Of a stretch of 38,067 bases of DNA, positions 15,701 through 38,067 are shown piece after piece. Below the pieces are notes generated by a model. The model made no database searches. It saw only the letters and a program-made list of their open reading frames with translations, and was not told the DNA's origin. This DNA comes from a virus, in the IMG/VR virus record IMGVR_UViG_3300037189_011016, positions 1 through 38,067 of that record; one strand, 5' to 3'. Numbering within the stretch: the first letter of the stretch is position 1; every line of letters begins with the position of its first letter. The position numbers and the translations under genes were made by a program.

Positions 15701-17279
15701 GCCTAACAACTCTAGGAGGACGCTCCGCTGGAGGACGGAATAATGCTGGAGTACTTCTCTCCGCTCTACGCTGCTGTTCTCTCTCTACAGCCTCACGTTC
15801 TTGAGCCTGACGCTCTAACCTATCGGCAAAAGACTCTCCCTGCCCACCAGGGATATATGGAGGATTAGGATATCTATTACCAAAAGATTCAGGAGGAGCA
15901 GTATAACCACCAGCATTGCCCTGAAGACCCTGCTCACGTTCACGCTTTTCTTTACGCTTTCTTGCTTCGGCCTCACGACGATTCTTAGCATCACGATCAG
16001 CGTTTCTAACTCTCTGAACATAATCAGCATATTCTTTTTGTTTCCTAACACGTTCCTGCTCTTCAAGTCGTCTTAATTCGCCAGGAGTTAAACCAGTATC
16101 TTGATATCTAGAATTATCTTCAAGAATAGGAGTATATTTATCAATAAAGCCACCAGAATTACCCTGAATACGAGGAGGAGGAGTCCTACCCTGCCTCTCT
16201 GATAACGCTCGTCTTCTTGCCTCGTACTCTTCAACTTCTCTTCTCTTACGAGCTTTTTCTTCTCTCTCAACTCTTGCAAGATCTTCAGGAGTTAAACCAG
16301 TAGCCGAATATCTTCTAGGGTTACCATACCAACGAGAAGTAGGCTCTCTTTCAGGCTCAATATCCTCAATATAACCAGCTGAACCCTCATATGCTGGCCT
16401 ACGAGGAGGATTATTTCTTCTAGCCCTGCCACCATAATATTCTTCTTCACGAGGAACCTGACCACCAGCATTACCCTGCAAAGCTCTAACATATCTTCTA
16501 CTTGACTCTTCTACAGCTCTGGCCTGTGCCTCAATAGCGCGAGCTTCTCTTTCATGAGAATCTTTTATTCTTTTATCAATAGAAGCAGGACGGCTACCGC
16601 TATTACCAGTAGTACGAAGACCAACCTGCTGAGAGCGCACGCTTTCCTCGGCAAGTTTAGCCTGCTGCTCAATGGCACGAATCTGACGTTCGTTAGCCTG
16701 ACGAACCCTTGGATCAGCCTTATACTGATTTTGATAAGCCAGAGCAGCAGGAGTAGTTGCAGTTGCACGGCCCTGAATACCAAGAGCAGAAAGTTCCCTA
16801 TTAGCAAGCTGGTTAAAGCTTGTGGTTAAGTTTTGGGGACGTACATTAGAAAGAGCACGAGTAAACTCAGCAACTTTACGTTCAAAAGCCTGATTGAACG
16901 CCTTAGAAATTTCAACCTGCTTATTTCTTGGAAGAAAGTCAAAATTCTGAATCTGAGACTGAAGCTTTCTTAAAGCTTCTTGCTGAAACTGCTGAGAATT
17001 AGGACCAGGCTGGGAAAGAATCTTTGCCTGTACCTGCATCTGCTGTTGCTGCAAAGCAGCCAATCTAGCCTGCTGCTGAACAACAGCCTGCATATCACCC
17101 TGAACTGGAACAGACTGTGTAGTAGTAGCCTGAATAGGCAACTGTGGGATATATGTGGCACCGCCAGATGCGGAACCAGAAGCCGCTCTAGAAGCCTGAG
17201 CATCCTGCTCTTGATAAAAACGTTGCAGATCAGAACGGTCAATTTCTGGCCGTATCCTAATTACAAAATCCTCAGCCAT
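1..17279 (-). CDS. Giant tape measure protein with embedded enzyme-like domains (partial, C-terminus beyond left edge)
   Basis: One open frame runs from an ATG at 17279 to the left edge without a stop, giving at least 5759 codons. The start has a good ribosome site (AGAGGGA, about 5 bases upstream). The N-terminus, MAEDFVIRIRPEIDRSDL, is typical of tape measures, and a TP901-type core lies near residues 3950-4360. The order along the protein is: Q/A-rich helix (1-260), charged helical repeats (260-460), two kinase-like domains (about 660-1300), two GNAT-like domains (about 1620-2170), zincin A (about 2400-2720), ADP-ribosyltransferase-like (about 2800-2960), zincin B (about 3160-3480), P/G-rich linkers, the core, then Q/A-rich coiled coil to the edge. 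Tape measures set tail length, are held by the GT chaperone and leave with the DNA; most are about 1000-2500 residues. The gene lies just downstream of GT, as expected. The enzyme functions are inferred from motifs. Confidence 0.93.
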   Translation of the reverse strand, partial: MAEDFVIRIRPEIDRSDLQRFYQEQDAQASRAASGSASGGATYIPQLPIQATTTQSVPVQGDMQAVVQQQARLAALQQQQMQVQAKILSQPGPNSQQFQQEALRKLQSQIQNFDFLPRNKQVEISKAFNQAFERKVAEFTRALSNVRPQNLTTSFNQLANRELSALGIQGRATATTPAALAYQNQYKADPRVRQANERQIRAIEQQAKLAEESVRSQQVGLRTTGNSGSRPASIDKRIKDSHEREARAIEAQARAVEESSRRYVRALQGNAGGQVPREEEYYGGRARRNNPPRRPAYEGSAGYIEDIEPEREPTSRWYGNPRRYSATGLTPEDLARVEREEKARKRREVEEYEARRRALSERQGRTPPPRIQGNSGGFIDKYTPILEDNSRYQDTGLTPGELRRLEEQERVRKQKEYADYVQRVRNADRDAKNRREAEARKRKEKREREQGLQGNAGGYTAPPESFGNRYPNPPYIPGGQGESFADRLERQAQEREAVEREQQRRAERSTPALFRPPAERPPRVVRPFSPSNFVPRTQPTPRFNTSNPQGGSTGMNQPYIEAPRTSDSRYVRRNEIEPVVSQSFMNAVGFRATNTEQGAYDDRILRAEADRIRIQQQIAARQFAASEREVSSATREVAFRNNLIKLIGADEIGDPRFDSQRQPLEYQNPAMSRLGSGFQSIAYTFNAGSGKDLVYRRRRQDLFGNSGGGDGYADNRERTSALLLAQTLPAYARKNMERLAAVLPGPYGSALSPVPITYRGTGKSLSDYNSSSFPGSPTVDRKHLTDLQRTLSAMFQAGLGGDTGAHNLLYDKKKGFTVIDYWKQGQQTKTDADAAAKREVDRMVQSLALNLVGNPGGMLSGNAGGFTGTPDLPPFVRTARGGRRDREQKSPASRVREIVDNFARQVGLPTGSWNPSVSSGEIADRMIPQADPFASLRQLARMPRPAALDMQPSFPSFPVVDLFGKTLNPGMSAGNSALSPEWWNQSEPLSKGDLLAKIDELMGRVEAGPTSSDQARFVTPNTGILSKVKEFLGTAARSVMGRQKLTSGGVRAWQTEESARFGHDRYGYKREGENTSMMERLWGYLYGGQLQATNEFPKFDERLMSAVGRVIGPEALINRSRVGRGRTANPEPDSNIFSKLGEGMQSVAYSFKNPLDTSEDLVYRRVKPTADFAAQMGSMLGGPWADARQRTAALVRAQGIPGIEQLVGVLPGPRGMVESPIPITKRAPGKTVSAQLRAGLMTDVTNEQLDDLYETFYQMALKGIGGDNHTGNMMYDSEAGFTKLDFWPQTEAYSEQDATDTATMNMEEFMMDMSMDGWKGPKGGRSGFVELGPWADEELTGRGQFGSVSMTAPGPPNNGRRWTRKNKGWKDSSLIRRSIVGLLRRMTGLSGAASRLAAGGYAGTRGGSTGAPNGITGGSGRMSWWERALGSLGRFGSQASQRAAMSGMGITDGRQYAGDFGTSLPPRSFSEPADSGGLGAMFSSGRQFDARQTPGGGLQGNSGGYIWNTLGSYGLGNIGGIPEAVGRGEYKEDIVSDLLDAMGFRSKMEARNWWRRERGGPGIEVPPLDRLARDKAVYLDEKKEEMYMDGYAEPTASSVRLNNDDLNLGLSSSQRNSILGSFLDTGYGESKLFTYNLTGRSAFQQDSFMKFNVSDEESNGPKVATVAYSTLRSRDRGKNRGIAMYLDAFKQLYKDGVRYVSNDSGSVSADATRVWEKFVELGLGDLGVEGEGSESSGFSGRQYIIDLEKLKDPDVAEKLQRYEDPAKYIEGERKKAERFRKLVDQRLKKLLQSSPIDLKNISLEDLKSPGYGLANFTTEEMAGSVSARDKAFGRKSGATARDYARYRNTRTGSNGYNIYGVPWGRKIDEFEANISVEADDAAFRLYESILGKKLDEFRARRVEIEKELLGLSRKGQQNTRLDRGSRRQRTDTSGFRNTSERPGPGSSRGSAIRARSDASFSIAAREFGISGNPATRAELTASNRPRSDRTEEIANWFVNQLDKLQGGGLQGNSGGFVGSAGTGGWGPPGQSQDDPLNPEQRTAANYLWNEFDGSVNTLTAQYNTPGLNKFNKDSFISFGQDSKRKDIAAVNYSSLEPSLRGKGYGLAMYIDALKRARENGVKYISNDTSYLSPYSANVWKTLENLGLATLVRQGSDNNGSTVSGRQYLIDTARFDDPEISKNINSKLNPKALEWISSTNKKRTKFDQLVAQKVRRLLKNNLANYGNDKLSKLRAYNELEGRLDPDTGLNPVSLSQLFGRRTSAYSKSATDPTFDDGSLEYQSDMAAVKLTERLLAQMKNTASRGSGILREFSMYSGYRRLRPSSGLQGNAGGFVSDMARRTPPPPRRAGANDRNQVPTRTRVPASVRFFESFPYEPVLGGKEPDDLDPEVTTGLPFSWMPPGRSWTREENLPLINTPGVGVLGGDFAEKLFGRQRGGSIQERLDNQFQRSAARRAIETQLKVATQSKNFEFNAFTPELTPYFAQKASSTYKTLFSSFPEILSAIEFVGTGNKTGRRFNLRPDQISGNRGSIGSAMVNTMLPGELQYQRGGNIQLNEDMFTMADRSGIGRGPYKNDPTWGPIYEHLVKGPVGAMAHEFGHGVDFKARTEPGYVTELQKYLQDYFKTTNYNEIQDNTRLQLGDYPSRAFNSPGGNLSTFLAETVAQSFGQAFSADPRLLKRLDVDPKFARGIANIATRNATGRELADEDFDSIRKRLNTVGSPARLRKGLNGEMFFNQDGRTLADLRRKNNRSISTRVPRAMLAGNAGGFVGYNQSMPGSSADISGLSDEELGIISRFHSKWIQNSRVAGIRKSFRNIWTNGNEPQDASSRGVNSSIIGSLLQEQPSSTTYRGVLLTQEQIDEIMKTGTYTTGKDYQGAPDTASGNIDVASSFAFNEFGTATAGLTGNEIPVMLRMTGPNLPLTAATQAYEAKTKRTWWQKYAGMDKYAGADERLVAGTYNVTGSSMQPLSPGIRERISNNPWSEYRDAVTNGIRTIDLQADMSSPIYKKRFNIGDMIKKMLNFGIEPPTVEQFDEDRANSQVTRSKVTIEEARNLVKAKDKKDALIGPGSLRDASIFDIIKSGLFGKEEAVQIREAADEQEIARRRELEKLFDDDPFAPSSGSGSVGRGSAPTPLSSEELNALFGDAGGFVNSGVPVDLGGRQSALEKLPLIELPGIGVPDQTFARKLRPARTPGASIAERLETQLKRSRARRKIEQQLVDVAGPGNFRFDKPGSEIPMSRAAKVLLSRFPEMLSTIGFIGTPDRLDSQFDGIYGAMSEGAGGMAYPGGEYMPGEYAPSAISINPQAYDRERRVSEVMDDNFATKNRTFRRNVTMSPVSYLAHEFGHTVDYRARTKDGYTDKLSRYLAEAAAARGIVGDPNAPLQFNGAPNGMMGASAEQMLVTSNLGEYAGLEADPDTFLKETVAEAFAKVFSESPEKTIQAGQDPTVARDIVKMAFKATGRDVTDQELDDIRRQLRSVSSEAAMANPSLRSTIYNASLGLEDILGLVPGNAAAGLPNIPQGDISFSETGVGAVRDQLVPFVGKGKGRQKLDGVYVQRLRDAADKVTGYDVIAGGQVVGNFSGGKAPKQDALDLAQQFAQAEFGMRYMGGEFGGPQPQTAAGGAGGTGGGGNLPPVGAAPDDEQPSPSERYQQGAKAGFQGAAEMYGFANTPEGQDAINMVGLAKAVAQWIRSLEESSAAIQKASFGLAEDLAQAKGTVQAFNRNIANQASIIANEQMLADPDAMAAAAGAKVSNQGFGNAVDQTVLADPSLAGTQAGQDADKLRLAERRRVAKERELIARGELDLIPKSRRGLYPDAFAANQTPAEQLSDLESRFRAASGTLSSAQGLTFADPKAAKQITAAVSRDFRVIRQEVLGLNISPSANPDEYVRLEELRKQVANFKQTLLGSYNTAATGGSGPLNPSNTDIFGGGPGGPGGPGGGSNVPAPGWFQRVRNANQDTPAGFFGSGALSTIKYGLPGMLLYGGLDLFKDSLREAQEFQFALTKIQNQIEATFGGDSAAITEKYSNLILDASKNTGIAADELAKMSVQIIGAFKDVPLDFGSKGMMSGEAAIQGQIDAASKIATVTGLPLKEINDGLQATSLAYGMSYEQIGNIATRLESTTGVSANEIFNMTGDIAPVAQTSGYQLEEIMALMAAVASRTGRSGAAIAESFGRILPGISDRKPELYSLAVENSGAFGSEFYQDLSNNNLKGVLEGLGKAYTATDAQGNFILGGNARKEVEASLGGRREAQILIPALSQGARVRELADDALKNSDGGLEKRFEVIRSSIQNTVQRLIAQIRTLFVELIESGIGDVLKDVAAGFGLILRAVSPIVKLWTQFNDILGGIPTKLLAIGLLFKTLKWSGLIPENALDGGSAELARKNRSSKVVDTALATRAISAGGDGIDPARLRDNGDGTSTIISPVGKYAPTDMTTFLPADLRQQVFDNAVSMTPNGKPEEVTNSLLARSMQDVAGSYLSSKEIKIGESQPLPTVTAEEIVQQRKNAERMGQAFCDRQGSDFPDQPVRMTSREMRKRYMSGDYFMDEDAINAEYVDVEQQVEKERKKVMGLAQSPVERQQRLDELDTKLSDAQATRDSKLQNIKDVTDRITLEEGLVRDQQLNDIMTAEVPVPGEPGTTRKLTKEEQAQRQEAVESSYNSRVRSRISAELDNGTELKRTTATVRGFGNGMENARLRLNKMGEGFANFWKNNIYGKQTLRDDQGNEVTRRTGAFAGFGNMKDEYKMFRAGGAGRLDAAGAAIEGNALGGLGMEAVTVGATIAFQAAMNYGVDERKKRIDKLRKGWMTGDYGTNVGFGKAIGDGYVPDIDNRGILISQRQFQANSLLDERTGKVAAEKTGAGAVLDWLGARISGGETVNEAKQNVRDELVRAESVSWMSTVLDDQSSRRTGNKRLRDIFGGVQDQKVVLLPGGKKLDITKEQEKIFDSKEFEALTPEAQKMLFNAGDSKNPLGYLNKQSKSDDKDTAQAAADAIDFIQRSEDIFDKSYLDAISKRKAKNEEIAKTIEAISKGEKKLQELAQSLASGGISAQTYLRVSNFVSDAAYKTVQDQIAADGTADQELIDFITRERKARSDIAKSLYDAQLERVQYLGSVDKNISPQQNLMQQFSVVNRALDDPNLSPSAGYEYGKKWIDLQKEGLRQRINRQTDVFAIGGMDATIDVDPRVQKAFIKSGIENYIGKDAYTAFDVALQGSNAAFTGGGGTPDIPAGWPGSNPARTPNPAAGRDWTSGSEFTDEFAAAVQSGDPAQIQAVREKALKNIAAARDERAAIEASAAANGGNYTDQQKERLKAIDAEVAGFSSILGDAGQQIADSIRLAALDVKTAKIDSLTALEQSQNTKNARARGQASLRGSQAKLIAAYQEGYRPGDPEYDNIQAEINNNASADRDNAMADIRSNFSLNSTRFRNRGQQSAGALQNVKNARANLQDLQKRKAGISELNAAREELDNAEKAFKDALIQEYAIFQTTQQKLRGTDPLDIAQTNVAIAKNKYDNSEGYDKLVAQGELVDAMRQQRRAEVARANSYTNLNSSENSKDPIKVADNNVEIAQRELAMAKQFNDIEAQNNAQAKLNEAIKSRQEAMNQARLAGMQLRQAELQAMGDEIGAAKQNEKIIKQQIADALALGAPADSAEINGLNAQLIAAERATQNSINQSNYALMDMRKAQLEANQDAIGVADMDLAVLQQQLQDAIRLGAPQDSAEVRGLRAQITRAQTAAADTRYNETKDDFMWQYNMEKITRTQL
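4185..5450 (-). other. TP901-type tape measure core
   Basis: Residues about 3945-4365 read as the conserved phage tape measure core. Helical segments include SLREAQEFQFALTKIQNQ, the strongly characteristic TGLPLKEINDGLQATSLAYG and TTGVSANEIFNMTGDIAPVA, then EEIMALMAAVASRTGRSGA. Hydrophobic helices near the end (GIGDVLKDVAAGFGLILRA and LGGIPTKLLAIGLLFKTL) may contact or cross the host membrane during DNA entry. This region is the main basis for calling the whole gene a tape measure. Confidence 0.85.
6840..7800 (-). other. Zincin metallopeptidase-like domain B (HEFGH) inside the tape measure
   Basis: The motif AHEFGHTVDYRARTKDGYTD has zinc-ligand histidines at residues 3342 and 3346. TFLKETVAEAFAKVF follows about 80 residues later, with a candidate third-ligand glutamate near 3422. 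ETVAEAF closely resembles the ExxAEAF segment of the lethal-factor catalytic domain as I recall it. Like domain A it is preceded by PLIELPGIGV and ERLETQLKRSRARRKIEQQL. All catalytic positions are intact, so both copies could be active. Confidence 0.74.
8390..8880 (-). other. ADP-ribosyltransferase-like domain inside the tape measure
   Basis: The segment carries the three landmarks of an R-S-E type ADP-ribosyltransferase: TTYRGV with R near residue 2850, TASGNIDVASSFAF in the STS position about 30-40 residues later, and ADERLVAGTY with E near residue 2951. Order and spacing fit the fold. It lies between the two zincin copies. Phage ADP-ribosyltransferases such as T4 Alt are carried in the virion and modify host proteins. 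The target here is unknown and the assignment rests on motifs only. Confidence 0.5.
9130..10090 (-). other. Zincin metallopeptidase-like domain A (HEFGH) inside the tape measure
   Basis: The motif AHEFGHGVDFKART lies at residues about 2594-2607, with the two zinc-ligand histidines at 2595 and 2599 and the catalytic glutamate between them. About 65 residues later, TFLAETVAQSFGQAF gives a candidate third ligand (E near 2660). HEFGHxVD followed by E-x-x-A-x-x-F is the arrangement of anthrax lethal-factor-like (M34-type) zincins. The domain is preceded by a segment (PLINTPGVGV, then ERLDNQFQRSAARRAIETQL) that recurs before zincin B, so the duplicated unit is about 300 residues. Confidence 0.72.
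10760..11150 (-). other. GNAT-like acetyltransferase domain B inside the tape measure
   Basis: Residues about 2045-2170 contain IAAVNYSSLEPSLRGKGYG, with RGKGYG beginning near residue 2100, followed by LAMYIDALKRARENGVKYISND and VWKTLENLGL. RGKGYG is a clean match to the R/QxxGxG/A acetyl-CoA loop of GNAT enzymes. The same downstream segment, SGRQYLIDTARF, follows, which shows that domains A and B arose by duplication. The acceptor substrate is unknown. Confidence 0.65.
12040..12430 (-). other. GNAT-like acetyltransferase domain A inside the tape measure
   Basis: Residues about 1620-1745 contain a beta strand (KVATVAYSTL), then RDRGKNRGIAMYLDAFKQL, then GVRYVSND and VWEKFVELGL. This matches GNAT motif A (R/QxxGxG/A, pyrophosphate loop for acetyl-CoA) and the following strand/helix. 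The loop here is degenerate (GKNRGIA, R near residue 1676), so activity is less sure than for domain B. A segment reading SGRQYIIDLEKL follows, as it does in domain B. Confidence 0.55.
13370..13900 (-). other. Kinase-like domain B inside the tape measure
   Basis: This is a paralogue of domain A. It has KLGEGMQSVAYSF (starting about residue 1139), DLVYRRVKP, hinge-like VLPGP, then GIGGDNHTGNMMYD with D near residue 1267 and N near 1272, and KLDFW with D near 1285. The GxGxDxHxxN...DF pattern is close to that of PI3/4-kinase-like and HipA-like kinases. All three catalytic positions are kept, so the copy is not obviously dead, although the N-lobe lysine is again unclear. The DFG glycine is replaced by W, as it is in domain A. 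Confidence 0.62.
14770..15310 (-). other. Kinase-like domain A inside the tape measure
   Basis: Around residue 671 there is a glycine-rich loop-like segment (MSRLGSGFQSIAYTF), followed by DLVYRR and a hinge-like VLPGP. Next comes a catalytic-loop-like GGDTGAHN with D near residue 802 and N near 807, then IDYW with D near 820 in the position of the DFG aspartate. The spacing and order match the protein-kinase-like fold, closest by eye to PI3/4-kinase, HipA or aminoglycoside kinase families. The usual beta3 lysine is not obvious; RR sits there. An LFGNSGG motif interrupts the N-lobe. Substrate is unknown. Confidence 0.6.
15906..16481 (-). repeat. Charged helical repeats in tape measure N-terminal part
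   Basis: Within the tape measure, two repeats share the pattern TGLTPxxLxRxExxE, followed by a strongly charged K/R/E helix and then a QGN[A/S]GG motif. The first carries the helix EEKARKRREVEEYEARRRA and the second a longer one ending near KRKEKREREQ. They look like rigid charged helices joined by glycine-rich hinges. They cover roughly residues 267-458. No enzymatic motif is visible here. Confidence 0.7.
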
Positions 17280-18579: not shown

Positions 18580-19911
18580 TCAGTCGTCCATCTCGCCGTT
18601 GTAGACGTACATAAGACCCTGATCGGAAGTGAAGGCAAAGCTTGTCTCAAGCTTGGTCTGGATACGACCGGAAAGACCAGGAACGTTGAAACGTGCATCT
18701 GGAACAAAGATGGTCTTGACAACATCACCAGTATCTGGATGATTGATAACAATCTTAAGAGGTACTGGAGTGGTGAAGTCTGGACCGATTACCTCATTCT
18801 CAGAAACACCAGTGATCTGTGCAAGCTTGTTCCAAAGATCTGCTGGGTCGAAAGGCTTAACGCCAATTGTACCAGTTACGTCTGGAACAAAGTAGTCCAT
18901 CGTTACATAGTGCTTTGAACCGAACTCTTCGTCCATTTCAAGGTTAGCAGCCCAAGTAACTTCAACAGACTGAACTGAAGTCATTCTGGTGTATACGGGG
19001 CTGGCGCCAGCAGTACCGATGTAAATATCGATATCACGGGGACGAACAGCAGCTGGCTTTGTGGTCACACGCTCATGGATGCGGTTACCTGATGGGTTAA
19101 GACCCTGGTAATCGTTACCTGGATTGTATGAGCCAGTTTCGGCTGAAGCATAAACAATACGACAAACGTCATAGGTTGCAGTTAGATCTTCATTGATCCA
19201 AACTTCACCAGTTGAGTTGTCTGAGTAGCCAGCATTTGGATTAAGAGCTGAATCTTCCCAGAATAGACGCTTGTAATCACCAGTAGCAAGATTGATAAGA
19301 ACGACACAAAGAGCGTAAACATCGTCACCAGACTCAGCATAAAGAATTGGAGCCTTGTCAAGAACAAAAGGATTGCCCTCAGTACCATTATTACCAGTGT
19401 AGTCAAATTCCTCGTAGTAAGGCTGACCTGGAACATAGTAGATTGAGTCGCCACGAAGGGTGAACTGCTGAGCAGCGTTCTGACGAAGACCGAAACGATA
19501 GGTAGCACGCTCTAGAGTCAGGTAAGGAACAGCAAGACCCTTAACAATGTCGAAGTTGTTACGACGTGATTTGAATGGTGAAACAACGTCGATTGGAATG
19601 TGGTTCTGGAAGTCAATTTCGTTAGAACCTGCAACACCGCTCAACTGTGTACTACCACCAGCGGGAGCGTCACCGGGGACGGCAGCGCCGCCATATCCAA
19701 GAAGAATTGCTTCGAACTCTGAGAAAACGTCGAATGATTCGAGGTCGAAAGTAAGGTCAGGAATGTCGGTAATAGTAGCGACTGACTTCCAGTTACCCAG
19801 CTCGTAGATCTTTTCCTGAGGAATGTTGAGCTGGCCGGGGCCACCTGACTGAATTCTATCGATCACATAACCATTGGCGTCATGTAGAATAGCACCTGCT
19901 TTAATTGCCAT
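18580..19911 (-). CDS. Major tail protein (tail tube)
   Basis: The protein has 443 residues, starting at the ATG at 19911 with a strong ribosome site (GGAGG, 8 bases upstream). It begins MAIKAGAILHDANGYVIDRI and is rich in beta strands, without signal peptide or membrane segments. The C-terminal part (LKIVINHPDTGDVVKTIFVP, then GRIQTKLETSFAF) fits a tube-forming beta sandwich. It lies directly upstream of the G/GT chaperones and tape measure, has its own long leader and is followed by a strong terminator, as expected of a very highly expressed virion protein. It is longer than a minimal tube protein (about 200-250), so an extra decorating domain is likely. The identification rests on context plus overall character. 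Confidence 0.78.
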   Translation of the reverse strand: MAIKAGAILHDANGYVIDRIQSGGPGQLNIPQEKIYELGNWKSVATITDIPDLTFDLESFDVFSEFEAILLGYGGAAVPGDAPAGGSTQLSGVAGSNEIDFQNHIPIDVVSPFKSRRNNFDIVKGLAVPYLTLERATYRFGLRQNAAQQFTLRGDSIYYVPGQPYYEEFDYTGNNGTEGNPFVLDKAPILYAESGDDVYALCVVLINLATGDYKRLFWEDSALNPNAGYSDNSTGEVWINEDLTATYDVCRIVYASAETGSYNPGNDYQGLNPSGNRIHERVTTKPAAVRPRDIDIYIGTAGASPVYTRMTSVQSVEVTWAANLEMDEEFGSKHYVTMDYFVPDVTGTIGVKPFDPADLWNKLAQITGVSENEVIGPDFTTPVPLKIVINHPDTGDVVKTIFVPDARFNVPGLSGRIQTKLETSFAFTSDQGLMYVYNGEMDD

Positions 19912-20052
19912 TTTGAGAAACCTCCATAGTTAGTATTTGTGTGTCCTTTGCCTTTGACTATGAAGGTCGCCGGCTACCGTATAATATCCTATTCACTACA
20001 TGCAGGCAGTGATTCCTGTCAGTATTAACGACAGTATAGTAAGCAATTAAAG
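19912..20052 (-). promoter_or_regulatory. Leader of the major tail protein gene with possible promoter
   Basis: This 141-base gap is one of the largest between genes here. On the minus strand it holds a TATTAT element (plus 19981-19986) that could be a -10 box, with only a poor -35 match (CTGCCT) upstream. It also holds two small hairpins, CTGTC / GACAG and CACT / AGTG, and ends with the ribosome site. A promoter would fit the tail tube being needed in bulk, but the sequence evidence is weak. Confidence 0.3.
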
Positions 20053-21218: not shown

Positions 21219-21488
21219 CTAGATATTAGTTATCTCATTGACCTTCTCATATATATCGTCTAATCTTGAAAGAAATTCATCATTCCAAATAATGTTATCT
21301 TTTTCTATAAGATCAAAAGAAAGATCACAAAGATCATTAATCTGGTCAAGAATCTTTTTTCTCAACTGAGAACTGACTTCAGAAGGAAGAAAAGAATCAC
21401 ATTCCTGTTCCTTGAAAGAAAGAATAGAAGCAATAGCCCTATCTCTACGTTTTGCTAAAAGCACCTTATTATCCATTAATTTATCCAT
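21219..21488 (-). CDS. Small hypothetical helical protein
   Basis: The protein has 89 residues, beginning MDKLMDNKVLLAKRRDRAIA at the ATG at 21488; a second ATG lies four codons in. The ribosome site is weak at either start. The protein is almost wholly helical, with two cysteines and an acidic C-terminal half, and has no membrane segment. It sits 8 bases upstream of the 385-residue gene and just after the fibre, so it is probably co-transcribed and may assist fibre or tail assembly. Family not recognised. Confidence 0.72.
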   Translation of the reverse strand: MDKLMDNKVLLAKRRDRAIASILSFKEQECDSFLPSEVSSQLRKKILDQINDLCDLSFDLIEKDNIIWNDEFLSRLDDIYEKVNEITNI

Positions 21489-21507: not shown

Positions 21508-24500
21508 TCATGCTGCAATTCTAGTAACATTTATAAACTGAAGCGTATAAGTTTGTGTAGTATTTGCCGTAGCTGTAATCAAAAGATCAAGAGCAAGTGA
21601 TCCAGAAGAAATATTTTCTGTAGCAACACCAGTACCAACTAATGGGTTGTTTGCGTTGATAGTCCACATCAAAGATCCATTTATATCGCTAGCTGCCTCA
21701 ACTCTTAATACACCAGTAAATATTGAAGATCTAGTTGAAGCATTGTTAGTCAAAGTAATAGTTGCCGTAGCAATGTTTGTACTACCAATTTTAAGAGTTA
21801 AAACTAAGGTTCTACCAGAACCTGAATTTTGAAGAATATTTAAAGCCCCATCAATATAGATAAGATCACCAGCACTACAAGCAGGTAAAGTAATCGTTGA
21901 ATCAAGTAGCGATGTAATAGTTGATGGCTCATTTTTACCAGCGCCCTCATCTTGACCACCAACAATCAATGCACCTCTAGCACCAGTGGCTCCTGCGGGT
22001 CCAGTAGAACCAGTCGCACCAACTGAACCATTGGCTCCCGCTGGACCAGTCGCACCCGTAGCACCCTGCGGACCGGTAGGACCTGTCGGTCCGGTTTGCG
22101 TGTTGGTGACCTGCGAAACAACGATGAACGCAGATGGAACCGTAGGTCTTGTGGGATTAGACTGAACACCGATGTAGTCCAACTTGATTTGGGTGTTATT
22201 GCCACTCCAAAAGATTTCGTAGTAGTCCCCGGCAGCAGCGTCAAACTGATACTCCCAGTTCACCAATTGCGGAGTGCTGAACGTGACAGTCGTATCAAAC
22301 GTCGTAGCAAGCGCCGTGTTTCCGTTCTTCACCAGCCAGAACGAAATAATGTGAACCGCACTGCCGTTCGACAGATCGACTAACTGACCTGCAAACCCGA
22401 GGCTGTAGATGCCAGCATTAGCAAAAGTGATTCGGGTCAGCGCAGAACCATTCGACGCCACAGACACACCGTTAGCAACGTTCGTACTGTCAAACTGAAC
22501 GGCCTGCCCAACAGTTGTAGAAGCCAGCGGCTGATCAACCGTGGAGTAGAACGACCCGTAGTAGCCAATAGTTCCACCAACACCAGAAGCACCAGTAGCT
22601 CCAACACTACCCGTATAACCCTGTGGACCAGTAGCTCCAGTAGAACCATCATTTCCGCTAGGACCAGTCTCACCGATTGGACCAGTTTCTCCTACGGGGC
22701 CAGTAGCACCTGTTTCACCTTGAGGACCAGTCTCTCCAATGGGGCCTGTATATCCACTAGATACAAGCAATTCCCAGTTATAACCTGGAGGATATCCTCC
22801 AATAGTCCAACCGGCAGTAGAAGGAAGCCACCATAAAGATCCTTCAAATGTAACTGCATCATACAAAGAATAGACAGTTCCCCCACTCCATAGACCACGA
22901 TAGTTATATGGCATAGGACCTGTAGGGCCTTGCGGACCTGTTTCTCCGATCGGACCCGTCCAACCATCATTACCGGGTGAACCGGGTGAACCAGTTTCAC
23001 CCATTGGACCAGTTGGACCAGTTTCACCAGTCGGACCAGTCCAGCCATCTATACCACTAGAACCTGTCTCTCCCTGAGGACCAGTCGCTCCGTCTAAACC
23101 GCTAGGGCCAGTAGCGCCATCAGCGCCCATCGCAGCAATCTTGGTCCAGAAACCTGGCGACGGCGTATCGCCGGTGTTGCCCCCGTTAGCGCCGACCCGG
23201 TACCAAGTCTCACCGTTATAAGTAGCCACATCGCCAACTGCATATGATGCACCACCGTTATATTCCCCGGTGAAGTTCCAAAGAGCATCACTGCCTGCGG
23301 GACCAGTTTCACCCTGTGGACCAGTCGCTCCGTCTAAACCGGGTAGACCAGGATCACCGGGCGGGCCATCGCCACCGGGGTCACCCTGCGCTCCGGTATA
23401 CCCCTGCTGACCCTTCGGCAGATATAAATCCCAGCCTCCAGCGCCACCAGCCGGATCGCCCAACTCGCCGCTACCCGTAGCAATATACAGGTTATCATCT
23501 GAACCTTTAACAATTGCGCCAGGCACATAACCATTACCTGGAACATATGTATTTAACCAATAAAATCCAGATCCAGTCGAGCCAGTCTCTCCTTGTGGAC
23601 CTGTAGGACCAGTAGAACCATCATTTCCGCTAGGACCAGTCTCACCGATTGGACCAGTTTCACCCTGAGGGCCAGTCTCACCTTGTGGCCCGGTTGGTCC
23701 AGTTTCACCAATAGCACCAGTTGCGCCTTGAGAGCCAATAATCGACAGAGATAAAGTAACCAGTTCACCATCGGTGAAAGAACCATATCCCATATTACTT
23801 GGATCAACATTAAATATTACATAGCTTCCATCAACTGTTTCGTTAGTAACAGTGCCATCAACACATGAAGTAACTTTCCAAGTTGCGTAAATATATGGAT
23901 CTGACTGGCTTGTCAAGGTTAAGTAAGCACTTTGAACGTTTAAAAATAATTCGTGTAAAGTTGTATTTATATCATAAGGATTATCATCTACGACAATTTG
24001 GGTTGCATTATAATATGGTAAAGTAACAAAACCCAAATTATCGTTACCGGGATCTCTATCACCGGAAGTGGATGTATTTATTTGATAAGTCCAAGATAAC
24101 CCAGCAAGTTCTCCTTTAGGTCCGGTTTCACCAGTTGGACCAGTAGCCCCTGTCTCACCTTGTGGCCCGGTGATACCATCATTGCCAGGAGAACCGCTAG
24201 GGCCAGTCTCTCCAATAGGTCCAGTTTCACCTTGCGGACCAGTAGCACCACTAGAAAGGCTTAATGTATCAATAGCATCAAGTGCTTGCAATAGATTATA
24301 TGTATTTTCAAGATTACCCGTGTAATCAGTACGAGTAACAACATCTAATGACGTAGTGCCCTGAGGCTGAAAAAAGTCAGCTTCCGCAAACGGCCACGTT
24401 CCGCCAAAAACAGGGGAGAGCGAGTTTGATCCTACAAAGATTGAAGGAACACCAAATCCTGCACCACCGCAAGACAACGAGACAAGAGTGCCACCTAGCA

Positions 24501-25695
24501 GGGATATCGGCTCAAAACCAGTACCCGTAAACCGGGCATAAACCGTTGGCATATAGTCTCTTTGCCCGCCTTCACCTTCATCGATCATTAGCAGAACTAA
24601 GTCATTGGGGTCAGCTTCCCATAAACCGCTGTATTCATATGAAGTAACTTTAGAAAAGTTGCTGTTTGCTGGAACCCAACCACCATTCCACTCAGTTTCA
24701 GCTTCGCCCGGTGAATAAGTAACAGTCCAAATCTCGTCCCCAACATCTGGAGTTAGTGAAGGGGTAAGCAGGATTGCCGCCGCTTTCACAACTGTAGTAG
24801 CCGGAGGCTCCCAAGTAGCAGCAAGGCTATCTATATACAACCAACGAACTTCTGTAACAGTTACTGCATCTCCAGTCTCAGTATTGCGAGCAAGAACCTC
24901 AACCTTCACATCCCATTCATTAACTACCTCAAATGGAGCAGAAAGATTCAGAGTAAAAACAGTTTCAGTATCATTATCAGCAGAATGATAAGCAAGGGCC
25001 TTATTTTCCAACCACGAAGAAACAGGAGAATTAGAACTACCAGTTAAAGGAGCGCTAAGATTAGCCCCATCATAATTAACAATCGCTGCCCAAAGATCGG
25101 TATCAGCACCACTTTCAATAGTTACCTCAGCACCAACAACAAGTTGACCCGGCTGTAATTCACTAAGAAATAGAACACCACAAAGAAATGGGTCTGTAGC
25201 AGCCATACCAACAATAGGACCATCCACATAGAAACCTGGAAGGTCCTCCCAATTACTAAGAGAAAGATTTGGCGGACTAGTATCAAGACTTACAGCATCA
25301 ATAATTTCTTGACCAGAGTTATCAACAGCATAGCCAACCAGCCCAGTAATAACTTCAGAGACAGTAAGAACATCACTCTTTTTCGTTAAAGTCGGCAAAC
25401 TATCATTTCCAGCAGGACCAGTAGCGCCCTGTGGACCAGTCTCACCTTGAGGACCCGTCGAACCATCACTACCAGAAGATCCTGTTTCACCTTGGGGACC
25501 TGTATAACCGCTAGGGCCAGTTGGACCAGTTTCACCTTGTGGACCGCTAGCACCCTGTCTGCCCTCAGGCCCCTGACGGCTGGACAAAATGATAGTAGTT
25601 TCACCATCACCAGACGAGGAAATGACGGTCCCATCCTCGGAACCGTCTTCAATAATTACTTCATCATAATTATCGTCCTCTATATAGCTAGGCAC
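21508..25695 (-). CDS. Collagen-like tail fibre with C1q-like domain and carbohydrate-binding-like modules
   Basis: The protein has 1395 residues from a GTG at 25695 (GGAGG 9 bases upstream; no nearby ATG), overlapping the previous gene by 8 bases. Many G-x-y triplets (GPQGETGPTG type) form collagen-like stretches separated by globular parts: residues about 45-98 collagen; 100-480 globular; 485-530 collagen; 650-705 collagen; then three short WxxxxxYxxGxxVxxxG modules (about 707-758, 802-855, 925-978) resembling CBM5/12 carbohydrate-binding modules; a further collagen stretch; a C1q/TNF-like jelly roll (about 1038-1198); a last collagen stretch; and a C-terminal beta-rich tip. It is very likely a trimeric host-binding fibre. 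Its position between neck genes and tail tube is unusual for a tip fibre and could also fit a neck or whisker fibre. Confidence 0.9.
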   Translation of the reverse strand: MPSYIEDDNYDEVIIEDGSEDGTVISSSGDGETTIILSSRQGPEGRQGASGPQGETGPTGPSGYTGPQGETGSSGSDGSTGPQGETGPQGATGPAGNDSLPTLTKKSDVLTVSEVITGLVGYAVDNSGQEIIDAVSLDTSPPNLSLSNWEDLPGFYVDGPIVGMAATDPFLCGVLFLSELQPGQLVVGAEVTIESGADTDLWAAIVNYDGANLSAPLTGSSNSPVSSWLENKALAYHSADNDTETVFTLNLSAPFEVVNEWDVKVEVLARNTETGDAVTVTEVRWLYIDSLAATWEPPATTVVKAAAILLTPSLTPDVGDEIWTVTYSPGEAETEWNGGWVPANSNFSKVTSYEYSGLWEADPNDLVLLMIDEGEGGQRDYMPTVYARFTGTGFEPISLLGGTLVSLSCGGAGFGVPSIFVGSNSLSPVFGGTWPFAEADFFQPQGTTSLDVVTRTDYTGNLENTYNLLQALDAIDTLSLSSGATGPQGETGPIGETGPSGSPGNDGITGPQGETGATGPTGETGPKGELAGLSWTYQINTSTSGDRDPGNDNLGFVTLPYYNATQIVVDDNPYDINTTLHELFLNVQSAYLTLTSQSDPYIYATWKVTSCVDGTVTNETVDGSYVIFNVDPSNMGYGSFTDGELVTLSLSIIGSQGATGAIGETGPTGPQGETGPQGETGPIGETGPSGNDGSTGPTGPQGETGSTGSGFYWLNTYVPGNGYVPGAIVKGSDDNLYIATGSGELGDPAGGAGGWDLYLPKGQQGYTGAQGDPGGDGPPGDPGLPGLDGATGPQGETGPAGSDALWNFTGEYNGGASYAVGDVATYNGETWYRVGANGGNTGDTPSPGFWTKIAAMGADGATGPSGLDGATGPQGETGSSGIDGWTGPTGETGPTGPMGETGSPGSPGNDGWTGPIGETGPQGPTGPMPYNYRGLWSGGTVYSLYDAVTFEGSLWWLPSTAGWTIGGYPPGYNWELLVSSGYTGPIGETGPQGETGATGPVGETGPIGETGPSGNDGSTGATGPQGYTGSVGATGASGVGGTIGYYGSFYSTVDQPLASTTVGQAVQFDSTNVANGVSVASNGSALTRITFANAGIYSLGFAGQLVDLSNGSAVHIISFWLVKNGNTALATTFDTTVTFSTPQLVNWEYQFDAAAGDYYEIFWSGNNTQIKLDYIGVQSNPTRPTVPSAFIVVSQVTNTQTGPTGPTGPQGATGATGPAGANGSVGATGSTGPAGATGARGALIVGGQDEGAGKNEPSTITSLLDSTITLPACSAGDLIYIDGALNILQNSGSGRTLVLTLKIGSTNIATATITLTNNASTRSSIFTGVLRVEAASDINGSLMWTINANNPLVGTGVATENISSGSLALDLLITATANTTQTYTLQFINVTRIAA
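22095..22580 (-). other. C1q/TNF-like trimeric domain of the fibre
   Basis: Between two collagen-like stretches lies a beta-rich domain of about 160 residues. It starts GGTIGYYGSFYSTVDQPLAS and includes FANAGIYSLGFAGQLV and HIISFWLVKNGNTAL. The order (short collagen stretch, then a domain with a 'YxxxFxxxGxYxxxF' strand) resembles the C1q-like heads of collagen-like proteins of bacterial spores and phages. It would trimerise the fibre and could bind receptor. Base composition is clearly more GC-rich than in neighbouring sequence. Confidence 0.6.
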
Positions 25696-26044
25696 TTCTA
25701 GTAACCTCCGCTTTTACCTTAAAAGAACCATAAAGCGGTCCGTAAACTTTTTCTAAAGGAGTTTCAAGTTCTAGATCATACTTGTATGAACCTGGAGGAA
25801 AGGATGAAGTTGTTACATCGTCAATAAATAAAGTAACGCTTCCAGCTGGACCATCAATAATGATACCATCATTTTCAGTCGTAAGTTCAACTAGATAAGT
25901 GGATGCGTCAATAGTAACTCTGACCTGCATCCTAGCAGTCCAGTCAGACATATCAATAGCATTCTCATCAGCATCTTTAAACAGATAGATCTGTTCAAAA
26001 GTTTTACCCTGCCAACATTCTAAATTTCTTTTTACTGGTTTCAT
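25688..26044 (-). CDS. Small beta-sandwich tail/fibre-associated protein (BppU N-terminal-like)
   Basis: The protein has 118 residues; its ATG overlaps the previous stop by 4 bases (ATGA). The sequence follows a pattern I know from many phage baseplate or tail proteins: a start with WQGKTFEQIYLFKD, then DMSDWTARMQVR, an acidic turn GIIIDGPAGSVTLFID, and PPGSYKYDLELETP near the end. This looks like an immunoglobulin-like or BppU N-terminal-like sandwich. Such proteins usually precede fibre genes and may link the fibre to the particle. It lies directly upstream of the collagen-like fibre and overlaps it, which supports that role. Confidence 0.72.
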   Translation of the reverse strand: MKPVKRNLECWQGKTFEQIYLFKDADENAIDMSDWTARMQVRVTIDASTYLVELTTENDGIIIDGPAGSVTLFIDDVTTSSFPPGSYKYDLELETPLEKVYGPLYGSFKVKAEVTRSA

Positions 26045-26568
26045 ATCAAATAATCCTCTGCATCATTATTATAAGTATAAGTTACAATACAAGAAACTAC
26101 CCACCAATATTTTTCATAAGGCTTAGAATGAAATCTTGATCTATCAAGCTCAACTTCTTCTATCTCACAACAAAAAAGAAACTCAGGAGTTGCCTGACTA
26201 AGATCATAAACATCAAAAATAGGATTGTCTCTACCAATAGACGTAAACCTACCCTGTAAAATTTCTTTAATATCACTAGCTAAATGCATTGCAACTACAT
26301 TATTTTCACCATAAACATCAATATACATACTAAAAGAATGTTCAGAAAGCATCGATCCCATCTCAGCTTCTGTCTCCATTATATCTTCCATTGATATGGC
26401 CATAGCATTTGAATCAAATGGAGTATTTTCATCAATAGGCTCTGGATAAATTTTTAAAGGTTTATGACCACGATTATTAGAAAACCAATTAAGATCCGTC
26501 AAAGAATCAGTAACCATATTGACAAAATTGTCAAAAACTAAACGATATAAAATACCACCAACATACAT
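26041..26568 (-). CDS. Probable tail terminator / neck protein
   Basis: The protein has 175 residues from an ATG at 26568. The layout fits tail terminator proteins: an N-terminal helix (GGILYRLVFDNFVNMVTDSL), a middle strand/helix unit (SMYIDVYGENNVVAMHLASD, then IKEILQ), and a C-terminal strand pair (KYWWVVSCIVTYTY). It follows two connector-like genes and overlaps the next gene by ATGA. Tail terminators cap the tail tube and bind the head connector. The assignment is by pattern and order, as no single diagnostic motif exists. Confidence 0.65.
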   Translation of the reverse strand: MYVGGILYRLVFDNFVNMVTDSLTDLNWFSNNRGHKPLKIYPEPIDENTPFDSNAMAISMEDIMETEAEMGSMLSEHSFSMYIDVYGENNVVAMHLASDIKEILQGRFTSIGRDNPIFDVYDLSQATPEFLFCCEIEEVELDRSRFHSKPYEKYWWVVSCIVTYTYNNDAEDYLI

Positions 26569-26576
26569 AATACAAC

Positions 26577-27038
26577 CTACTTCTGGTCAATCGCAGTGCA
26601 ATAGATCTGATAGACGGTCACAGTAAAAAGACCAATAGGTGGACCAATAAAATCTATCTCATATAACTGGTTACCAATCAGAACCTGATCTGCCCCTTCT
26701 ATCTCAACAAAATCAAAGTCAAGAATAGTTAAGGTAGCACGAGGATTCCTAATATCACCCATAGGAACAAATTCAGCATTACCCTGACGACTAACAAATT
26801 CAACTGCTACTGGAACCTGAACATTGTCTCTTTCAACAATATTAGTTGGAGTAGCAGAAAAGTTATAAGGATTACCTTGATTATCTTCAATGTTATATGA
26901 TCTTCTAACTGACCACTTAAAAGTTACACGATCTTCTACAGCATTTGGCGCACCCATAAGCATGGTATTACGAATCTGAGTACGGAACTCATCAGCATCA
27001 AAACCAGCGCCGAAAGTAGGATCAGAAACAGCAGCCAT
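26577..27038 (-). CDS. Probable head closure / head-tail joining protein
   Basis: The protein has 153 residues if it starts at the ATG at 27038, which overlaps the stop of the previous gene (TGATG); a TTG four codons earlier is less likely. It is mostly beta, with FKWSVRRSYN and ATLTILDFDFVEIEGADQVL and a final YEIDFIGPPIGLFTVTVYQI. Small beta-barrel stoppers of this size usually sit between the connector and the tail terminator genes, as here. Family not proven. Confidence 0.6.
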   Translation of the reverse strand: MAAVSDPTFGAGFDADEFRTQIRNTMLMGAPNAVEDRVTFKWSVRRSYNIEDNQGNPYNFSATPTNIVERDNVQVPVAVEFVSRQGNAEFVPMGDIRNPRATLTILDFDFVEIEGADQVLIGNQLYEIDFIGPPIGLFTVTVYQIYCTAIDQK

Positions 27039-27538
27039 CAGCCGTTCCAATCAATATAATTGTTCCTTAAAGAAAGATCTCTAGATTTTACACCATCAAC
27101 ATAATAAGATGGCGTCGTACCAATATCGCTCAATCTGTCAAGAAGAGTGGTTCTCTGAGCAAGCATGGAAGCGAGAAGAGTCTGAAGTACCTGCGCAGAC
27201 TGCTGAGTCTCATACTCCACAGGTCCAGCCTTAGACCTAAAAGTAGTTTTGATCTGCAACAGCTCCATCTGCAAAATATTAATAGCAGAATACATAATAA
27301 CAATCTGCTGTAAATCTCTAGAAAAAGTGGTATCGCCTCCACCAGAAGCAGAAACGATACCATCTTCATCACAAGTAAAACCAGAAATTACACCATCATT
27401 ATACGCAGTCCAAAACCCATTACGAAGTTTAGTAAGCCACTCCGCATCAGAGGCATTTGAATATCTAGAAGTAGTGCCAGGAATAGTTATAGCACCAGTT
27501 AAGTCTGGGATAAGATCACTCAAGTCAACCGTTGCCAT
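27038..27538 (-). CDS. Probable head-tail connector (adaptor) protein
   Basis: The protein has 166 residues from the ATG at 27538, with a strong ribosome site (AGGAGG). A helical core (FSRDLQQIVIMYSAINILQM and TQQSAQVLQTLLASMLAQRT) fits the helical adaptor proteins that dock under the portal. The sequence also has AEWLTKLRNGFWTAYNDGVI, a pattern common to phage adaptor-type proteins. It is the first of a run of neck genes downstream of the capsid block. The stop overlaps the next ATG by one base, suggesting coupled translation. Confidence 0.6.
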   Translation of the reverse strand: MATVDLSDLIPDLTGAITIPGTTSRYSNASDAEWLTKLRNGFWTAYNDGVISGFTCDEDGIVSASGGGDTTFSRDLQQIVIMYSAINILQMELLQIKTTFRSKAGPVEYETQQSAQVLQTLLASMLAQRTTLLDRLSDIGTTPSYYVDGVKSRDLSLRNNYIDWNG

Positions 27539-28195: not shown

Positions 28196-29143
28196 TCAGG
28201 CAGGAAGTGAATCGTCAACAATACGACGAATGCGATCGGGACGATGAACAACGCCACCGAACTCCTTCTTGCCAAGGTAATGCCAGTACCAGTTGTCTTC
28301 TTCCATGTATTCCTTGGTCTTCATGCCACCCCAGAAGGCGAACTTAGAAGCGTCAGTTGAGATAACGTAGAGTTCGTTACCTGGGAAGAATGGCTCTTCG
28401 TTCTCATCAAGATAGTTGGTGAGTGAAACGATGTTAGCGCCACGGTAGGTACCAAGAACGCCACGGAGAACAAGTTCTTCGTTAGTGGCGGGAAGGAAAC
28501 CTGAACCATTGTAGCTTGAACCAAGAAGCTCATCCATAATCTGCTCGGTCATTGTTGGACGACCAACAATTGTGACCTGGCGGGTACGGGAAGCGTCACG
28601 GACAGAAGCTAGTGCGCTATTAAGAGTGGCTAGGCCAACGCCAGTGCCATGCTCGTAGTATGGGCTTGAGCTAGGAATAGCAGCCTGGAAAAGACCAAGG
28701 GCACGCTGATTAACAGCAGCATCCATACGCTGGACAGCTAGATCTACAAGAGTAGTAGCAGTTTCAGCGAAGTTAGTCTCTAGCTTCTCTTCAAACTCAG
28801 TGATGTGGAAACCAATGGTATCACGAGCGATTTCCATCACCTCTGCGTGCAGGGTGCTGGCTTCGATGTGACCACCACGGGCGATCCAAAATGCCTTCAG
28901 ACCACGAACTTCCTTAACGAATGAACGACCATCAAATGGCAGATTCTCTACCTGAGCCATAAGAGCCAGAAGGTTCTCATGCTGGAAGCCCTCGTAGATG
29001 GTTTCTGTCATTTCCTGGGCACGCTCACGACGCCACTGTGGGTTGTCGAAGTTAAGGCGAGCCTCTTCGTTTAGCTGTGAAACCTTCTGACGGAGGGCAT
29101 CAAGCTCAGGATCTGTCTTACCAAATAGTTTAATGCTTGACAT
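28196..29143 (-). CDS. Major capsid protein
   Basis: The protein has 315 residues from the ATG at 29143 (AAAGGGGG ribosome site; a TTG two codons earlier is possible but less likely). The N-terminal part is helical (PELDALRQKVSQLNEEARLN), followed by a mixed alpha/beta body. GRPTMTEQIMDELLG, GTYRGANIVSLTNYL and ELYVISTDASKFAFWGGMK match the late part of HK97-fold major capsid proteins. The length is normal for the fold. It comes after protease, scaffold and decoration-type genes and has its own strong terminator, as expected of the most abundant head protein. Confidence 0.85.
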   Translation of the reverse strand: MSSIKLFGKTDPELDALRQKVSQLNEEARLNFDNPQWRRERAQEMTETIYEGFQHENLLALMAQVENLPFDGRSFVKEVRGLKAFWIARGGHIEASTLHAEVMEIARDTIGFHITEFEEKLETNFAETATTLVDLAVQRMDAAVNQRALGLFQAAIPSSSPYYEHGTGVGLATLNSALASVRDASRTRQVTIVGRPTMTEQIMDELLGSSYNGSGFLPATNEELVLRGVLGTYRGANIVSLTNYLDENEEPFFPGNELYVISTDASKFAFWGGMKTKEYMEEDNWYWHYLGKKEFGGVVHRPDRIRRIVDDSLPA

Positions 29144-29157
29144 TTTCAAACCCCCTT

Positions 29158-33374: not shown

Positions 33375-33376
33375 AA

Positions 33377-33679
33377 CTATCCCTTCGACATTTCCCATTC
33401 ATGGGTATTTAATGAACCAATTCTTGACCAAATTCTAAACTGGAAGTCTGTCTCTTTTAAAAAAGGAACCAGTTCTTCAACTCTAAAATCTATAATCTGT
33501 CTATTCTTTGAATTTGCTGATAAATTATTCATATAGGTAGCTCTAGCGGAGAATCCAGATAACATTTTCATAATAAGAAGAGGATCATCAATCTCCTTGA
33601 AAGATCCCATTTCCTTCAAATATCCAAGAATTTCACTTCGCCAGTCTCTAAGTACCTCTTCAGAACTTGATTTATCCAT
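33377..33679 (-). CDS. Hypothetical protein upstream of the portal
   Basis: The protein has 100 residues from an ATG at 33679, with a GAGGAAAA ribosome site. The sequence is helical at first (SEEVLRDWRSEILGYLKEMG), then mixed (NRQIIDFRVEELVPFLKETD). No known motif. It overlaps the previous gene by 64 bases, and its final codons hold the ribosome site of the portal gene, so the two are translationally linked. A role in head assembly is possible from position only. Confidence 0.72.
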   Translation of the reverse strand: MDKSSSEEVLRDWRSEILGYLKEMGSFKEIDDPLLIMKMLSGFSARATYMNNLSANSKNRQIIDFRVEELVPFLKETDFQFRIWSRIGSLNTHEWEMSKG

Positions 33680-33984
33680 GTATTTTCCTCTATTTCATCG
33701 GAACGCTTGAGCATAAAATCAAAGATGAATATTAGCGCATCAGTGAAATATATTGAACCTAGTGGGATCTCGCGACCTTTTATAAAAAAAGAAATATCCA
33801 AGTAACTGCTGTTGGGCTTATTAAAAGCTAAGCAATAGCTTCCCAAAAAACATCCGTCGCAAATTACCGCTCTAAATATATCTATCCTTTTAGACATTCG
33901 CAAAGAGCCATCTTTGCCACAAGAAAAACATCTCGCCTTAGAGAAAGAGCATTGGTGGCGCTTGCCAGCTCTGGCTTTTAGCAT
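33616..33984 (-). CDS. Small CxxC zinc-ribbon-like protein between terminase and portal
   Basis: The protein has 122 residues if started at the ATG at 33984, inside the end of the terminase gene (47-base overlap). It carries two CxxC pairs (CFSCGKDG and CDGC) about 20 residues apart, as in a zinc ribbon. A start at 33897 would remove the first pair, and an ATG at 34179 would overlap terminase by about 240 bases; both are less likely. No ribosome site is obvious at 33984, so translation may depend on terminase translation. The rest is helical with a hydrophobic stretch (FTDALIFIFDFML). Function unknown; DNA or RNA binding is possible. Confidence 0.6.
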   Translation of the reverse strand: MLKARAGKRHQCSFSKARCFSCGKDGSLRMSKRIDIFRAVICDGCFLGSYCLAFNKPNSSYLDISFFIKGREIPLGSIYFTDALIFIFDFMLKRSDEIEENTWINQVLKRYLETGEVKFLDI

Positions 33985-37870: not shown

Positions 37871-38067
37871 CACTTACCCCACTTACTAAAATAGTATTTT
37901 TGGCCTTTAGCAAAATTAGTCTTTTTATAAATAGAATCTTTATGAGAATCATCATCTGGAGAAGCATGACGTAAATTTGCAATATTTATAGACTTGACAA
38001 CAAAACCCTGAGATTCAGCTTGTCTAATAAGATCTGTCTCTTCCCATGACCAAATATAGTTTTCATC
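37870..38067 (-). CDS. Partial glycosyltransferase-like gene (C-terminal 65 residues)
   Basis: Only the last 65 codons are in the window; the start lies beyond the right edge. ENYIWSWEETDLIRQAESQG resembles the 'exxDlxxRa' segment near the end of family 2 glycosyltransferases, and the C-terminus is YYFSKWGK, as in such enzymes. The stop overlaps the methyltransferase ATG by one base (TGATG). With the downstream methyltransferase and second glycosyltransferase it forms a glycan-modification group. The family call is tentative because the catalytic DxD region is outside the window. Confidence 0.55.
   Translation of the reverse strand, partial: DENYIWSWEETDLIRQAESQGFVVKSINIANLRHASPDDDSHKDSIYKKTNFAKGQKYYFSKWGK

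Follow-up and report, generated by a model that had tools for sequence, protein, structure and literature searches.

The neck passage structure (NPS) of lactococcal phages (936, TP901-1) consists of a predicted BppU-like sandwich collar at the connector and of trimeric fibers with variable, carbohydrate-binding tips; it is optional, being found in 73 of 113 phages, and is believed to serve early, reversible host contact (PMC6669499, PMC9692632). In phage DT57C, twelve copies of LtfC ring the tail and anchor the lateral fibers, with N-terminal strands of LtfA added to the LtfC sheets and a trimerization helix of LtfA starting at residue 40 (PMC10713586). Here, we describe an LtfC-like adaptor gene followed by a gene for a collagen-like fiber of 1395 amino acids (aa), both encoded on a 38,067-base IMG/VR fragment (IMGVR_UViG_3300037189_011016; this whole stretch is called the window below), which covers late genes of a tailed phage, read on the minus strand. 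The two genes probably constitute an accessory, exchangeable cassette encoding a virion fiber, with a neck whisker that aids the hold on cells or surfaces as the favored form. No description of a collagen-based neck whisker was found in the literature searched.

A Collagen-Like Fiber with a C1q-Like Domain

The fiber is encoded by a single open reading frame (ORF) covering exactly positions 21508–25695 (minus strand, as are all window features below), with a GTG start and a GGAGG-like ribosome-binding site; its start position is the same in homologs from related phage contigs (VPSFIQ in L105, MPNYIEDD in L025). The protein contains 129 Gly-X-Y triplets arranged in seven runs of 14–24, compared with a longest run of 7 in 200 shuffles of its residues, and matches Pfam Collagen (PF01391) at an E value of 3.9e-50 (167.9 bits, cut-off 27.2). 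If every run were triple helical, the shaft would measure ~108 nm, at the ~2.8 Å per residue given for collagen in PMC11952670. A preliminary description of this DNA had seen long collagen-type repeats, three aromatic modules and a C1q-like jelly roll united in one protein, and all of these do fall within the one 1395-aa ORF; the adaptor gene had been overlooked, as had a 384-aa N-terminal region, a 123-aa middle domain and a 152-aa C-terminal domain of the fiber.

The C1q-like domain (residues 1042–1200; 22096–22572) was modeled by AlphaFold2 (AF2) as a block with pLDDT mostly 82–97. In the fold search with AF2 models, from which all Z scores given here derive, its best match is the C-terminal domain of F-BclA (9h38_B; Z 15.8, 133 residues, 2.6 Å), followed by BclA (Z 14.7; 14.5–15.8 for BclA and F-BclA) and C1q heads (Z 13.3–13.8; about 13.5 for human C1q), with BxpB and the NC1 domains of collagen VIII and X also among the nearest folds; structure prediction confirms the jelly roll. 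Neither BclA_C (PF18573) nor C1q (PF00386) gave a Pfam match to the window domain. Among the related phage domains, 20 of 45 match BclA_C weakly (E ≤ 0.1, best 2.4e-5), and the domain of L002 scores 18.9 bits, the cut-off being 38. By its model, the window domain shares the C1q/TNF/BclA-like jelly-roll fold but stands outside Pfam family membership. Matches of a C1q profile to Neuroplastin (E 1e-4) were set aside, as the fold search gave BclA, C1q, and TNF folds throughout.

The remaining architecture, read from the N-terminus, alternates collagen with globular parts. A strand-rich, acidic peptide (residues 1–41; 25573–25695), rich in Val and Ile as in the partners of other LtfC-like genes, precedes the first Gly-X-Y run (19 triplets; 25402–25572) and the 384-aa N-terminal region (residues 99–482; 24250–25401); the sole known relative of this region is in L105 (76% identity), with no match in Pfam, PHROGs, the phage collection, or an IMG/VR pattern search. 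Run 2 (16 triplets; 24106–24249) leads to the middle domain (residues 531–653; 23737–24105), which is 94% identical in L105 and gave no match in the family search. Run 3 (19 triplets; 23566–23736) is followed by aromatic module A (residues 711–761; 23413–23565), with relatives in L105 (two copies), L007, and L008; run 4 (14 triplets; 23287–23412) by module B (residues 804–856; 23128–23286), with relatives in L002, L105, L006, L007, and L008; and run 5 (24 triplets; 22912–23127) by module C (residues 929–980; 22756–22911). Run 6 (22573–22755) is the shaft ahead of the C1q-like domain, after which run 7 (14 triplets; 21967–22092) connects to the C-terminal tip domain (residues 1244–1395; 21511–21966), for which neither the phage collection nor the IMG/VR pattern search yielded relatives.

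The three aromatic modules are not one close family, A being 18% and C 29% identical to B. Module B matches the carbohydrate-binding module (CBM) family CBM5/12 (PF02839) over nearly the full profile at E 0.0024 (18.3 bits, curated cut-off 26.2), module C resembles it further below the same cut-off (E 0.11, 13.0 bits), and module A gave no match to it; a Pfam scan of the entire protein likewise left CBM under the cut-off. When the three modules are combined into one profile, its PDB matches include many chitin-binding chitinase domains, at E values of 0.06–0.3. Module B is the only one modeled above pLDDT 70 (70–80), and the matches of the fold search all fell to the C1q-like domain. Similar stretches of module plus collagen recur in many fibers of the phage collection, with 117 records at E ≤ 1e-5, a count to which collagen contributes. 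The earlier idea of chitin- or polysaccharide-type modules is weak, as B and C resemble CBM5/12 below threshold and A does not; we treat modules A–C as CBM5/12-like and their sugar binding as putative.

Pairing of LtfC-Like Adaptors with Strand-Peptide Fibers

The adaptor gene (25688–26044; 118 aa) overlaps the start of the fiber gene by 8 nt. A family scan assigned it to phrog_1084 (3.9e-20) and, at 1.2e-7, to phrog_3304, "L-shaped tail fiber protein assembly"; against PDB, its profile matched 26dk_M (4.6e-19) and LtfC of DT57C (8hqz_Q, 0.0067). The AF2 model (pLDDT 95.6) is closest to LtfC of DT57C (8hqz_T; Z 12.5, 1.9 Å, 110 residues) and its T5 counterpart (7qg9_J; Z 12.4), followed by a Douge baseplate protein (Z 11.1) and by structures whose PDB titles place them at the neck of P74-26 (9oab; Z 9.6) and the connector of Bas63 (9mt4; Z 9.0). 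Lower matches are to the baseplate proteins of NF5 and 80alpha (Z 8.5 and 8.1), the R4C portal-adaptor (Z 8.0), whose Ig-like domain is linked by its authors to local stability and not to adsorption, and TP901-1 BppU (Z 7.8). As the matches at Z ~7–8 include antibodies, only the top matches carry weight; T-cell receptor and antibody matches (Z ~7) were rejected as reflecting the common Ig-like sandwich arrangement. At E ≤ 0.1, the window adaptor has no match to Pfam LtfC (PF23926) or BppU_N; among its relatives, 19 of 59 match LtfC (best 1.5e-5) and 2 of 59 match BppU_N. The adaptor is predicted to be an LtfC/BppU_N-like beta-sandwich.

The arrangement is not confined to the window. Of 67 nonredundant LtfC-like genes that have an ORF beginning between −60 and +30 nt, 40 have partners with collagen runs, compared with 218 of 2186 ORFs of at least 150 aa overall; part of these loci were fetched via the C1q-like domain, which biases the sample toward collagen. 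The first Gly-X-Y residue of the collagen partners lies at a median position of 37 (residue 42 in the window, 36 in L002, 38 in L025, and 40 in L105). Their N-termini are enriched in Val and Ile (fraction 0.24, P 7e-14), and so are those of the 27 partners without collagen (0.26, P 6e-14), against 0.13 in 2,134 control ORFs; the enrichment in the noncollagen partners is independent of the bias introduced through the C1q-like domain, and the P values overstate independence because the loci are related by descent. The N-terminal strand peptide matches the joint described for DT57C, where strands of LtfA complete the LtfC sheets, and by analogy we propose that residues 1–41 of the fiber complete the beta-sheets of the adaptor.

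Distribution and Probable Exchange of the Cassette

Adaptor and fiber occupy a slot that we define as the stretch between the homologs of two genes conserved by synteny: p175 (26041–26568), the left border, at the tail-terminator position, for which the family search gave no match, and p89 (21219–21488; 89 aa), the right border. Across contigs with both borders, an LtfC-like gene and a collagen gene fill the slot in seven phages (the window, L002, L105, L025, L188, L189, and L203); in L004, GX15bay, L193, L195, L196, L198, and L204, it contains either no gene or no more than one small one. Two other genes are found there in L197; in L192, L199, and L200, other large genes adjoin p89, with the left border out of view. 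The genes of these four contigs encode 413–1679 aa and have no LtfC-like partners. As other large genes occur in this stretch, it might more generally act as a hot spot at which accessory structural genes insert. Six relatives have an extra gene of 114–137 aa between the p175 homolog and the adaptor, which is missing in the window (L002, 5549–5902; L105, 3918–4262; L188, 5542–5886; L189, 1674–2036; L025, 7581–7994; L203, 2832–3224), and the gene at the tail-terminator position is present in two tandem copies in GX15bay (16385–17550 of L017).

The fiber shares 75–94% identity with that of L105, the closest relative, across the N-terminal region, middle domain, modules A and B, and C1q-like domain, compared with 62% for the tube protein, 57% for the adaptor, 37% for p175, and 84% for the capsid protein. 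The tips of the two fibers are unrelated: L105, L002, and L025 carry a different tip domain, of a family shared among them (42% and 34% identity). At the DNA level, the fiber gene is ~77% identical to that of L105 over most of its N-terminal two thirds and 71% in the C1q-like part, against 65–70% in the flanks. As the capsid protein is also well conserved, the case for exchange rests mainly on DNA; with fiber DNA closer than its flanks and the tip unrelated, the fiber looks to have been horizontally exchanged and its tip replaced.

Position on the Virion and Proposed Mechanism

The fiber would be a homotrimer of the 1395-aa protein, in which the C1q-like trimer provides nucleation and triple-helical collagen segments hold the three chains together. 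The strand-rich first ~41 residues would complete the sheets of a ring of LtfC-like adaptors as LtfA does with LtfC in DT57C, and this ring would encircle the head–tail connector or the upper end of the tail, with ~100-nm fibers projecting from it. Initial, reversible attachment to the surface of a host or particle would fall to the C1q-like domain and chiefly to the exchangeable C-terminal tip; weak binding of glycans by the small aromatic modules spaced along the shaft may contribute.

The preliminary description had placed the fiber gene between neck and tube genes, and the order major capsid protein–connector–adaptor–fiber–tube–tape measure agrees with this. Its further suggestion of a neck or whisker fiber in place of a tail-tip fiber is plausible, with indirect support from the gene order in seven phages, the LtfC-like adaptor, separate tail-tip genes in two relatives, and deposited neck and connector folds. 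Several points weigh against the neck: gene order is not localization; the best LtfC match of the adaptor is by fold, at a sequence identity of just 13–14%, and the LtfC of DT57C sits at the tail tip; in GX15bay, an LtfC-like gene and the start of a fiber lie downstream of the tape measure, at the far end of the tail cluster, so that such a pair can serve elsewhere; and the window breaks off within the tape measure, before its own tail-tip genes. If the fiber were instead a lateral tail-tip fiber and main receptor-binding device in the style of T5, with the LtfC-like ring around the distal tail and the genes out of order, this would fit the experimentally placed fold match of DT57C, the GX15bay pair in the tail-tip region, and the exchange of the C-terminal tip, as in receptor-binding proteins. 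We nevertheless consider a tail-tip fiber unlikely, given that the cassette is found within the connector cluster in seven phages of the group and that about seven others lack it. Moreover, G001 and G006, the relatives with the tail-tip cluster on the contig, have their own genes at the Dit/Tal positions; the cluster of G001 contains neither a collagen nor an LtfC-like gene, and that of G006 a separate, different collagen protein. In Streptomyces phage Beuffert, an analogous pair (gp28/gp29) lies between the capsid and head–tail adaptor genes. Judged from gene order, the neck or proximal tail would be about twice as probable a site for the cassette pair as the tail tip.

Compatible with any location is the explanation that the aromatic modules are true CBM5/12 domains whose chitin or polysaccharide binding dominates the function of the fiber. 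The near full-length match of module B and the chitinase domains found by the joint profile speak for it, but every module stays under the curated cut-off, A is without a match, and only B is modeled above pLDDT 70; among neck structures, a CBM from a lactococcal phage of the 936 group bound its host (PMC6669499), and the CBM at the end of the A-1(L) neck fiber failed to do so (PMC10966104). We regard a dominant role of the modules as quite improbable. A decoration of the head or tail tube that binds particles or polymers instead of the host, keeping virions near their prey, would agree with an optional cassette and a long, C1q-like, weakly CBM-like fiber, as well as with the presumed adhesive role of the C1q-like tips of Bacillus appendages (PMC11952670). 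The dedicated LtfC-like adaptor and its pairing with a strand peptide point to a ring-anchored fiber and not to a capsid decoration; we regard this explanation as very improbable.

Beyond the neck whisker favored for the window, an LtfC-like protein (phrog_1084) and a strand-peptide fiber could represent a general plug-in module of phages, usable at neck or tail tip with any shaft, very often collagen, and appearing here as an optional, horizontally exchanged ~100-nm neck whisker with interchangeable heads; this is a tentative generalization, to which we would give slightly less than an even chance. The pairing gives phrog_1084, a common family of unknown function, a testable role as the socket for adjacent fibers, and names a recognizable plug, a Val/Ile-rich N-terminus of some 20–75 residues. 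It also suggests that phages exchange whole accessory fibers as two-gene cassettes, and that collagen neck whiskers may be common in uncultivated phages.

Flanking Genes of the Window

The terminase (33938–35563) was named via an annotated homolog in GX15bay, and the portal (31719–33398) and major capsid protein (28196–29149) by position and homology to the syntenic GX15bay and Bacillus phage Slash. The connector genes (26577–27538) include a probable head–tail attachment (stopper) protein (26577–27050), named tentatively from PF05354 Phage_attach, which 4 of 6 homologs match (best E 0.0069). Two conserved genes separate the fiber from a 443-aa protein (18580–19911) taken as the tail tube by position and homology to GX15bay and Slash. 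Connector proteins and tail tube gave no convincing match to PDB sequences; a search of 84,980 genomes for relatives of the tube protein found none, and hence no host. Next come a gene at the chaperone position and the tape measure (3–17279; PF10145, 2e-10), which runs off the left end of the window after at least 5759 aa. The part ahead of its PhageMin_Tail domain contains a pair of HEFGH..D metallopeptidase-like motifs together with repeated LQGN(A/S)GG(F/Y) segments; a Pfam domain search of residues 1–4000 was empty, and the tape measures of relatives are shorter (2829 aa in L002, 2098 aa in GX15bay).

Upstream of the terminase lie two genes (36756–37361 and 37358–37873), for a family-2 glycosyltransferase (PF00535, 7e-9) and a methyltransferase-like protein, and GX15bay is annotated with several glycosyltransferases at the corresponding place; by analogy with BclA, these genes might modify the Thr-rich collagen. 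Three GenBank labels of GX15bay (MK557849) seem wrong (18832–20049, 7353–10175, and 10302–12284): its "epimerase" is the tail-tube homolog, its "PhoH" the portal homolog, and its "portal protein" matches the 389-aa gene that follows the portal in the window.

Comparison with Known Systems

Phage-encoded collagen triple helices, with stable trimers shown, are known from the EPclA side tail fibers of E. coli O157 prophages (PMC3368898); these differ in their PfN and PfC end domains and coiled coil, and are likely side-tail proteins. The combination of a collagen shaft with a C1q/TNF-like trimeric domain is shared with Bacillus BclA and F-BclA (PMC11952670), the closest solved fold, although these are spore proteins with other anchors, and the C1q-like domain of the phage fiber is internal, with another tip after it. 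A trimeric neck fiber of ~100 nm with a CBM at its end is formed by gp82/gp81/gp80 of the cyanophage A-1(L) (PMC10966104), where, however, a bead-chain fiber is attached to a gp5 pentadecamer through a pilus-like-domain anchor, and collagen is not mentioned in the paper. LtfC–LtfA of T5 and DT57C (PMC10713586) resembles the window pair in its small single-domain sandwich of the same fold encoded next to the fiber and in a short, strand-rich N-terminus before a trimeric shaft, and differs in the position of LtfC at the tail tip, in the LtfA shaft starting as a helix and not as collagen, and in the low sequence identity (13–14%). Of the devices described so far, the lactococcal NPS comes nearest and works alike: it unites the sandwich and a coiled-coil fiber in one protein, whereas the window system has the sandwich as the separate gene 25688–26044, a collagen shaft, and a C1q-like domain, and with its separate genes and collagen shaft it is not a member of the NPS.

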